Positions 16,160 to 18,505 of a stretch of DNA of 64,000 bases are shown one piece after another. The DNA is from Sneathiella marina (GTDB lineage Bacteria > Pseudomonadota > Alphaproteobacteria > Sneathiellales > Sneathiellaceae): contig NZ_CP098747.1 in assembly GCF_023746535.1 (NCBI RefSeq), positions 434,001 through 498,000 of the forward strand, in the 5' to 3' direction. Positions within the stretch are counted from its first letter, which is position 1; each line of letters begins with the position of its first letter. The notes under the pieces were generated by a model, which was not told the origin of the DNA, did no database searches, and was given only the letters and a program-made list of their open reading frames with translations. Made by a program: the position numbers and the translations under genes.

Positions 16160-17008
16160 CTATTTGCGATTTTCCGATGACGCTTTTTCCGCGATGTTCA
16201 ATGCGTCTGTCGGATCTGTATTCAGATCCGCATGGAGGAATGCTTCTGTTTCCGGAATAGCAATATGCAGGTCGGTTTCGAAATGCAGCATTGCAGATAG
16301 GTCTCTAGCCCTTACATTCAACAAATGACCGCCCTTTGAGAGATCTCTTGAAATAAAGTGAAGATGGTATCCGGGGACATTTAATGTTTTCGCATATTCG
16401 GGAGACCAGAAACCAACCAGAGTGCCTTCAATATTTTCAAAGCTGAACTCACTTTGATGTGCTGTAGCGGCGACAAGGTCTTCACCTGAATTCGCTTTGC
16501 AGGCGGCCCGCAGATCGATTTTTTCGAAAAACCCTTCAAGGCGAACACCAATAAAAATATTTTCAGAAGGGCGCGCGGAATCGAGCTGCTGTTCCAACTC
16601 GCCTATGTTACCCACAATGGGTATCTGTTTTGTTTGGTCTGCTTGGAAACGGGTTACCGTTGCGAAAGGAGTTGTCCACTCGTCATTTGCCTCCCGCGTG
16701 ATACCGTTCACCCCTGCTTGATAGCAGTGACCGTCCAACATCACCATCTCTCCGTCCAGATTGTCGAAAGTCCCGAGGCCAAAATCACCGTGTGATTTTA
16801 AGTCACTGACACGGGTGCATCCTTGAAACACTCCTTGCACGAGAGCACCGCTGGTCGATACTTGAAATATGGAATGATGATCCAGTCCCAGGGCCGAGGA
16901 TATTATATTCTCCAGGGTATGGGACATGCTGTCCCCTGTCCGATCCCTTTCTTTTTGCAAGGCATTCCAGATGCTCTCAGATATCCGGCAATTCAATTGT
17001 TTTTGCAT
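16160..17008 (-). CDS. budA: acetolactate decarboxylase with an extra ribbon-helix-helix-like N-terminus
   Basis: Residues 45-270 match acetolactate decarboxylase, which converts 2-acetolactate to acetoin. HLHFISRDLSKGGH supplies the three zinc ligands (His215, His217, His228), and GEMVMLDGHCYQ supplies the active-site Glu. Before this lie about 41 extra residues, beginning MQKQLNCRISESIWNALQKE, with the strand-helix-helix pattern of CopG/Arc DNA-binding domains (TGDSMSHTLENIISSAL forming the second helix). The family is usually around 235-260 residues, so 282 fits an added domain. No acetolactate synthase lies nearby. The SLC13-type transporter just upstream may share its transcript. Whether the extra part binds DNA is unknown. 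Confidence 0.8.
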   Translation of the reverse strand: MQKQLNCRISESIWNALQKERDRTGDSMSHTLENIISSALGLDHHSIFQVSTSGALVQGVFQGCTRVSDLKSHGDFGLGTFDNLDGEMVMLDGHCYQAGVNGITREANDEWTTPFATVTRFQADQTKQIPIVGNIGELEQQLDSARPSENIFIGVRLEGFFEKIDLRAACKANSGEDLVAATAHQSEFSFENIEGTLVGFWSPEYAKTLNVPGYHLHFISRDLSKGGHLLNVRARDLSAMLHFETDLHIAIPETEAFLHADLNTDPTDALNIAEKASSENRK

Positions 17009-17038: not shown

Positions 17039-18301
17039 TCATCCAGATCCTGCGCCGACCAATTCTATCATGACATATACAATCCAGGCATAGCTGACGG
17101 CGATGGAAAAAATAGTCACGGGGAGAACCAGTCGCGAAAATTCCCAAAAATTAAAGGGCTGAGCTCCGAATTTCTCCGCTTGTTGGACAACAATGACATT
17201 GCTGGCAGCGCTAATGATAAATAGATTGCCGGCAAGCGTACTCATGCTTGCAAGAAGCATTAATGTTGCCTCATCCGATGTCGTCAATAAGTTGAGATAA
17301 ATTTCGACGACCGGCACATTTGAAAAAAGTTGACTGGCCCAGAAGGCAATGTTGGTAACAACGGCTGGTTCATTCAATCGGGTATGCCAAGGTCCCAGGA
17401 TGGACTGCAATGCACCTGATTCAAGGACCGATCCGGTCACAACAAACATGGCGACAAAGAAAACAAGCGTCGCCCAATCTACTTCCCGCGCGACGGTAAT
17501 GCGTTGCGCAGAGAATAAATAAACAGGAAGACAGGCAATGAGACTTAACCAGCCCAGCGGGATATCAAGATTTGGGAAGCTTTCCTGTAAGACACTATCT
17601 CCGATCACGAGAACCGCGAGCAAAATCGTGCTGAGATAGGCCGGCCAGGATTTGGTTGCGGTGGGCTCCGGCAAATCGACAGGTTTCGTATCCGTCGGCG
17701 CCTCACGGTCGAGACAAAATTTGTACCAGAAATATGCAAATATCATTGAAAGGACTGTCGGAATGGCAAGCCAATACAGGAACGTTCCGATGGGGTTAGA
17801 AAAATGGCCATCGGCAACAATCAGAATATTCTGAGGATTACCGACGGGTGACATCATGCTGCCAACTGTTACAGCAACACATAAGGCAATCAGGGGAATA
17901 GCCGGACGAATTCCGAGACTGGCAGCAATAGTCAGCGCAATGGGTGTCCCAATTACCGCGGCCGCATCATTGGTCAATGCGGCGGACCCGATAGCGACAA
18001 GCGCCATAAAATAAATCAGCATGCGCGAGGTTTTAATCTCGCCTTTGCAGAGAAAATTGCTGATCCGATGGGGTAATCCACAATCATATAGCGCATGGGC
18101 GATTGAGAAAACGCCAAAGAGGTATGCAATAACGTTCCAGTCAATCACTGACAGTGCTTTGGACGGCGAAATTTCACCAATCAGCAGTAAAATAATTGCG
18201 CCTGCCAGCATGATTTGCCAAATTCGAATTCGATCGGGAAGCCATTGCCTTATTGAGATAAAGAAAAAAATGGCAATAGCAACGGCAAGGCTGATGGTCA
18301 T
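17039..18301 (-). CDS. SLC13/ArsB-NhaD-type permease
   Basis: A 420-residue inner-membrane protein with about 11 spans. The segment ALTNDAAAVIGTPIALTIAASLGIRP followed by GSMMSPVGNPQNILIVADG is the signature of the citrate/arsenite/Na+-H+ (CitMHS, ArsB, NhaD) superfamily, and a later SNVPVVEIYLNLL repeats the pattern in the second half. Substrate could be a dicarboxylate, arsenite or Na+. It ends 30 nt before the acetolactate decarboxylase gene on the same strand, so the pair may be co-transcribed. Confidence 0.8.
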   Translation of the reverse strand: MTISLAVAIAIFFFISIRQWLPDRIRIWQIMLAGAIILLLIGEISPSKALSVIDWNVIAYLFGVFSIAHALYDCGLPHRISNFLCKGEIKTSRMLIYFMALVAIGSAALTNDAAAVIGTPIALTIAASLGIRPAIPLIALCVAVTVGSMMSPVGNPQNILIVADGHFSNPIGTFLYWLAIPTVLSMIFAYFWYKFCLDREAPTDTKPVDLPEPTATKSWPAYLSTILLAVLVIGDSVLQESFPNLDIPLGWLSLIACLPVYLFSAQRITVAREVDWATLVFFVAMFVVTGSVLESGALQSILGPWHTRLNEPAVVTNIAFWASQLFSNVPVVEIYLNLLTTSDEATLMLLASMSTLAGNLFIISAASNVIVVQQAEKFGAQPFNFWEFSRLVLPVTIFSIAVSYAWIVYVMIELVGAGSG

Positions 18302-18505
18302 CTTATACTTCTCTTTACACTTTCGAACTGATCAAACATGTGGTCATTTTTCGGAATTCTAGAAGATTGATTTACACAATCATACTATCGTTATGTTAAA
18401 CAACATAACCCATAAGAATTTCTAAATCTTTTTCCTGCAATTTCGGGTAGTGTAAATAATAGTATTGTAGAAAAGCATTGTATTGCTTTTTTACCGGAGC
18501 CAGTG

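Follow-up and report, generated by a model that had tools for sequence, protein, structure and literature searches.

A predicted ribbon-helix-helix domain on an acetolactate decarboxylase of Sneathiella marina, a putative trigger enzyme

The fusion gene and its enzyme domain

The window, the whole stretch of 64,000 nucleotides of Sneathiella marina DNA that was analysed, contains a gene for an acetolactate decarboxylase (ALDC) with an additional N-terminal segment, and a transporter gene lies upstream of it (Table 1). The open frame of the fusion gene consisted of 285 codons and left just 3 codons before the ATG, so the start codon was well fixed; a GAGG run was found immediately 5' of the ATG. 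In the Pfam profile search, the protein scored 244.8 bits against PF03306 (cut-off 25), and in the NCBIfam search, residues 46-266 matched TIGR01252 with 221.3 bits (cut-off 180.65). The fusion gene was the only PF03306 match in the S. marina genome. The first-pass annotation of this DNA had claimed that the enzyme part keeps its zinc histidines and active-site glutamate. The alignment bore this out, since H215, H217, H228 and E87 were identical in all 37 aligned ALDCs, as was R167, the active site of the window protein included. In line with ALDC structures, we take the three histidines to bind zinc and E87 and R167 to be catalytic. Judged from its sequence, the window protein is an ALDC with an intact active site, and its activity is predicted.

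With the known ALDCs (BudA/AldB/AlsD; PF03306, TIGR01252), the protein has in common the whole enzyme domain, the zinc histidines and the 4bt2/4bt3 fold, and it differs from the solved ones in its first 45 residues. Seven solved ALDC sequences aligned with it from residue 45-47 onward only, which indicated that residues 1-45 are an addition to the ALDC. In a separate observation, the Foldseek search with the enzyme part also returned PPC-type or 'putative DNA-binding' proteins (3hwu, 2h6l, 2dt4 and 3htn) at E-values of 8e-5 to 7e-4. The common strand and the 30-base spacing suggest that the transporter gene and the fusion gene are probably co-transcribed. In NCBIfam, the transporter matched MamN, ArsB and DASS models, all below cut-off.

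Table 1. Features of the fusion locus (positions in the window)
Feature	Position	Strand	Basis
RHH-ALDC fusion gene, 282 aa, ATG start	16160..17008	-	open reading frame; PF03306 and TIGR01252 matches
Predicted N-terminal ribbon-helix-helix unit, residues 1-45	16874..17008	-	AlphaFold; PDB fold matches; RHH_1 in relatives
Probable extended strand, residues 3-9 (outward Q4, N6, R8; inward L5, C7, I9)	16982..17002	-	alternating alignment pattern
Predicted helix A, residues 11-24	16937..16978	-	AlphaFold
Predicted helix B, residues 28-39	16892..16927	-	AlphaFold
Acetolactate decarboxylase domain, residues 47-263	16220..16870	-	PF03306 E 8e-73; predicted model against solved ALDCs 4bt3/4bt2 at rmsd 1.3 (Foldseek)
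E87, invariant glutamate, taken as active-site Glu	16748..16750	-	identical in 37/37 aligned ALDCs
Stretch holding H215, H217, H228	16325..16366	-	identical in 37/37 aligned ALDCs
CitMHS-type transporter, its end 30 bases upstream of the fusion gene	17039..18301	-	PF03600 E 1e-41
Inverted repeat GTTATGTT-N4-AACATAAC, weak operator candidate, upstream of the transporter	18390..18409	.	repeat search

The N-terminal segment

The first-pass annotation had also read the N-terminus as similar to a ribbon-helix-helix (RHH) domain. The RHH_1 profile matches of relatives, the predicted fold and the conservation of the segment agreed with this reading. AlphaFold modelled residues 1-46 alone with a pLDDT of 86 (17-row alignment) and the full protein with a pLDDT of 91 (37-row alignment), and both models agreed on an extended stretch at residues 1-10 and helices at residues 11-24 and 28-39. 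No strand was assigned by DSSP in the monomer models, as would be expected if pairing occurs only between chains. When the segment model was searched with Foldseek, CopG came first (probability 0.96, E 0.16), MatP and Arc were among the best matches and VapB26 had rank 25; no PDB match was found at E<=0.001. VIA-align of the segment model returned CopG, Arc and the PutA DNA-binding domain (2gpe and 2ay0) over 41-46 residues with Z of about 6, and it warns that Z under 8 may reflect just a common arrangement. Which of the listed PDB fold matches are RHH proteins was judged from their entry titles. The prediction gave helices of the RHH type with CopG, Arc and PutA nearest, and a contrary fold was not seen. 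The PDB sequence search with the segment profile gave weak support: repeat or designed proteins, none with an individually significant stretch, headed the list by E-value, and VapB26, MazE7 and CopG appeared at E 0.15-0.44.

By themselves, window residues 1-45 matched no Pfam or NCBIfam model. We therefore give the results for the family as 46 segments, which comprised 17 of the 18 diverse segments and 29 from the family of genome G837, one gene being counted once. That family is presumably picocyanobacterial, as a psbA-like gene adjoining the G837 operon suggests. RHH_1 matched 22 of the 46 segments (best 6e-8, E-values up to 10), the window segment being outside the 22. The other matches were SeqA_N (8), RHH_4 (7), PSK_trans_fac (7), RHH_5 (3), Arc (2) and FitA-like RHH (2), and a few unrelated families also matched 1 or 2 segments each. 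Among the 18 diverse segments, Pfam gave RHH_1 in four (best 5.8e-5) and RHH_3, RHH_4 and RHH_5 in one each, and NCBIfam gave a RelB-like antitoxin in four, YlcI/YnfO in two and the BrnA antitoxin in one (8.2e-5). The Ancylobacter polymorphus segment alone scored 21.4 bits against RHH_1 (cut-off 20.5), and 16.8 bits within the whole protein. As a control, RHH models matched 0 of 23 stretches before the enzyme part of ALDCs outside the fusion group; these stretches were 24-45 residues long, reached back to the preceding stop codon or to a limit of 45 residues, and may be untranslated in part.

The alignment was consistent with these results. Inward positions 5, 7, 9, 13, 17, 32, 35 and 36 were mostly hydrophobic or small in the 18 diverse segments, the exceptions being T at 5 or 7, P at 5 and S at 35. 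The linker is very short, helix B ending at residue 39 and the first enzyme strand beginning at residue 46, and the step from helix B to the enzyme was short and near-constant across the fusions. CopG, Arc and the RHH_1 repressors and antitoxins are mostly small proteins without an enzyme. The segment shares with them a strand-helix-helix of about 45 residues, the hydrophobic pattern and, in most cases, a GxS turn, and it differs in that conservation of its outward strand residues does not extend to all lineages. Collectively, the fusion and the RHH identity of the segment, the latter resting on prediction and on the profiles of relatives, are well supported, and we regard both as almost certainly correct.

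Occurrence, history and gene neighbourhood

The same fusion was sought in relatives and found, with the segment conserved across the family. A public genome scan gave 31 relative-encoding loci, and a comparable segment was seen by eye in four of them (L002, L004, L006 and L007). The gene was present in 3 of 23 congeners (some genomes incomplete), all three with the segment. In the class of the window genome, an ALDC was found in 10 of 385 genomes, four of which, its own included, carried the segment. Across its phylum, 12 of 398 genomes matched, and the segment was present in its own genome and in G933. The phylum of G095, which is that of Granulicella (L004), gave matches in 5 of 247 genomes, two with the segment. 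The phylum of G096, which is that of a Melainabacteria record (L002), gave matches in 5 of 194, three with the segment besides a frame-split case in G845. In the latter (L091), the segment and most of the ALDC lie in different frames, by decay of the gene or by sequencing error. In the family of G837, 43 of 300 genomes matched; 29 of the 30 loci examined had the full 45-residue segment and one was cut by a contig end. The fusion was also found on a plasmid of A. polymorphus, next to alsS. The fusion is widespread, with nearly all cases in one ALDC clade that has members in Alphaproteobacteria, acidobacteria and, presumably, cyanobacteria. Edaphobacter modestus (G097) carries three fusion paralogues (L093, L094 and L095) with different outward strand residues.

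Other N-terminal stretches were seen on ALDCs and their relatives. For enteric BudA, some Pantoea/Duffyella plasmid matches aligned from residue 6, 21, 22 or 26 (among the 40 listed of 171 records). These were rejected as the same segment, as the two examined carry a different stretch with CSCE or CLCE. Enteric-type N-termini (L074-L076), which are within the 23-ALDC control, were rejected as RHH because no RHH model matched them. Eleven phage records matched, and the 10 listed aligned only from residue 34 or 47 on. ALDCs outside the fusion group (L013, L018, L020, L026, L028, L031, L057 and L073) often had, by eye, signal-peptide- or lipoprotein-like N-termini, with a single weak LPAM_1 match in the profile search; such N-termini suggest that acetolactate may there be decarboxylated outside the cytoplasm.

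In the 38-row tree of the ALDC part alone, 17 of the 18 fusion proteins grouped together with two Legionellaceae proteins without the segment. The latter look like cases of loss, because they are nested well inside the fusion group. L090 was the most basal of the 17 and joined with 93/83, the remainder joining at 100/100 and 100/99; in the 52-row tree it switched sides, so that it may have gained the segment separately. The eighteenth fusion, L092 (G933), was placed among ordinary ALDCs in the 38-row tree, on which the fusion label required 3 changes. L092 thus has its RHH-like segment on an ALDC from a different clade and is perhaps an independent fusion. In the 52-row tree, a group of 33 rows (99/96) united the window protein and its genus with the cyanobacterial rows and the two Legionellaceae, and L147, from the family draw of G837, grouped with G409, G384 and G307. 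This tree kept 5 of the 18 ordinary ALDCs of the 38-row tree besides the two Legionellaceae, and it excluded the near-copies L142 and L144; its 'noRHH' labels include L089, the segment of which was entered as L066, and L139, at a contig end.

The gene neighbourhood was surveyed at 17 fusion loci, comprising the 16 with an ALDC recognised in the survey and the Ancylobacter plasmid (L086 outside). alsS adjoined the fusion gene in 13 of them, namely the three congeners, G409, G307 (divergent), G651, G837, G095, G099, the three G097 copies and Ancylobacter; no alsS was recognised next to the fusion gene in G741, G845, G096 and G933. At 20 further loci from the family of G837, an adjacent AlsS match was found in 12 (partial in L151 and L161) and none in 8. 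Two observations count against a DNA-binding reading of the segment: the window fusion gene has no alsS neighbour, unlike the three congeners with the gene, and the two Legionellaceae without the RHH segment retain the alsS-ALDC pair. The S. marina genome has 8 AlsS-like places, the best at 32% identity. AlsS above cut-off was found in none of the 4 places scanned (L104 in part), of which L102 was a biosynthetic IlvB (PRK09107 above cut-off) and L103 was PRK08199. The window genome thus keeps an ALDC without a recognised catabolic AlsS. Beside the fusion ALDC and alsS, cytochrome bd subunit-like genes were observed in L085, L095, L096 and L098, and genes like those of malic enzyme and fumarase/aspartase in L085 and L093, all read from their first residues. 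These neighbours suggest a malate-to-acetoin set.

Outward-facing residues, operator search and possible function

The residues on the outer face of the ribbon were counted in the window clade (the genus and the apparent picocyanobacteria, n=29). Strand position 8 was R/K/H in 25 and D/E in 0, and position 6 was R/K/H in 18 and D/E in 3. At position 4, basic and acidic residues were equally frequent (8 each), which counts against DNA binding. R/K was found at position 23 in 21 and at position 33 in 19, and acids clustered at 26, 38, 41 and 43. The count leaves out L066/L089 (one gene, with S at position 8), L142 and L144; with all included, position 8 was basic in 27 of 32. In the other fusion proteins (n=14), position 8 was basic in 1 and acidic in 5, with a Fisher p of 8e-7 that is too small because relatedness was ignored. 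The difference at position 8 suggested that the window clade resembles DNA-binding RHH proteins more than the other fusion lineages do. Since position 8 is acidic in 5 of the 14, DNA binding cannot be the common reason for retention of the domain. Over the 18 diverse segments, the outward residues varied freely, including D/E, L, P and A. The window protein itself has the outward triad Q4, N6 and R8, which we take to be that of Arc, and E33 where 19 of 29 clade members carry R/K. The RHH unit of the window clade also has many conserved histidines (positions 3, 6 or 8, 30, 44 and 45). The net charge of the segment was rejected as a sign of DNA binding, as it was similar in RHH_1 proteins of related genomes (p 0.18; 13 control rows, including the mis-mapped row L116 from a contig edge).

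The operator search gave one weak candidate, the inverted repeat at 18390-18409. The genome contained it once as a perfect copy and in two further places with 2 mismatches, and the reversed-pattern control gave one. A different repeat outscored it in the same upstream region (p about 0.05), and it was not common to the relatives, whose locus differs. No palindrome was common to all of the aligned regions upstream of alsS in the three congeners, or to all of the picocyanobacterial regions upstream of alsS (11) and of the ALDC gene (7). A fuzzy search for a block common to L155 and L156 found none in L151 or L171-L180. When the best inverted repeats were compared with 60 shuffles each, p<=0.05 was obtained in 2 of 34 upstream regions, which equals the chance expectation; one of the two was the window region upstream of the transporter (p about 0.05).

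To our knowledge, PutA is the sole case of an RHH domain fused to a metabolic enzyme. PutA type C has in common with the fusion an N-terminal RHH domain on a metabolic enzyme, and the RHH model matched the PutA DNA-binding domain. The fusion differs in being a decarboxylase with a very short linker and no known flavin or membrane switch, and its DNA binding and operator are putative. Trifunctional PutA is described as an RHH-fused autogenous repressor, and addition of the RHH domain conferred DNA binding on a chimaera (PMC5293562).

The first-pass annotation had proposed a self-regulating trigger enzyme, with oligomerisation as the alternative. The RHH part of that interpretation held; the trigger enzyme is possible, with strand positions 6 and 8 mainly basic, position 4 mixed and no operator found. 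A front domain of the DNA-gripping type, recurring in other lineages, suggested that the enzyme may have a second role in turning genes on or off. Our main reading, to which we give about even odds (0.5), is that the protein is an RHH-dimerised ALDC that, in the window clade, binds DNA and links the metabolism of acetolactate to transcription in a PutA-like manner. The RHH ribbon, the outer face of which mostly retains basic residues in the window clade, would join two chains, and the dimer would bind DNA near its own operon or near acetolactate-related genes. Acetolactate or its product, bound in the enzyme domain, might then alter the RHH geometry and hence transcription, as proline does for PutA. 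A wider reading, which we consider unlikely as a whole, is that the proteins form, alongside PutA, a second RHH trigger-enzyme family, largely of single origin in one ALDC lineage and spread over at least three phyla, which would sense acetolactate through the zinc site and perhaps, within the window clade, acidity through the RHH histidines, and would set the acetoin-pathway genes.

It is quite possible, at somewhat less than even odds, that the RHH unit acts only in dimerisation or tetramerisation, stabilising ALDC subunits or linking them, and has lost DNA binding. This alternative was retained because no operator was found and because the outward faces are acidic or hydrophobic in several other fusion lineages. 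The mostly hydrophobic or small inward positions, with outward residues free to vary in the 18 segments, the short and near-constant step from helix B to the enzyme, and the SeqA_N matches in 8 of 46 segments, SeqA_N being an oligomerisation domain, are all consistent with it. However, dimerisation would not require the basic residues seen at positions 6 and 8 of the strand, nor the lack of acid at 8 (n=29), and the two Legionellaceae enzymes manage without the segment. For the window clade, we lean towards DNA binding combined with metabolic control over pure dimerisation. A further reading, which we regard as improbable, is that instead of an operator the RHH unit recognises another protein, in the manner of RHH antitoxins, or a different polyanion. 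The RelB-like (4) and BrnA (1) matches in NCBIfam among the 18 segments point that way, but they probably reflect just the shared RHH part, and no toxin-like neighbour was recognised by eye in the surveyed fusion loci. Finally, the segment could be a chance helical extension and not an RHH unit, since the window segment alone matched no profile and the Foldseek E-values were not below 0.001. This is very unlikely, given the RHH_1 matches in 22 of 46 family segments (best 6e-8) versus 0 of 23 controls and the RHH proteins among the best fold matches.

The window protein is best placed as an ALDC with an RHH domain, and as a putative trigger enzyme. In the literature search, no paper with both 'acetolactate decarboxylase' and 'ribbon-helix-helix' was found, no listed title or abstract opening described the fusion, and none of the open papers dealt with the ALDC dimer interface. 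A second, unrelated RHH-fronted enzyme, conserved in many apparently picocyanobacterial genomes, would make the repeated evolution of enzyme-regulator fusions testable. If the main reading is true, it would show gene feedback by acetolactate, from which valine/leucine synthesis and acetoin overflow branch. In the one annotated case examined, that of A. polymorphus, the fusion is hidden under the plain name acetolactate decarboxylase.
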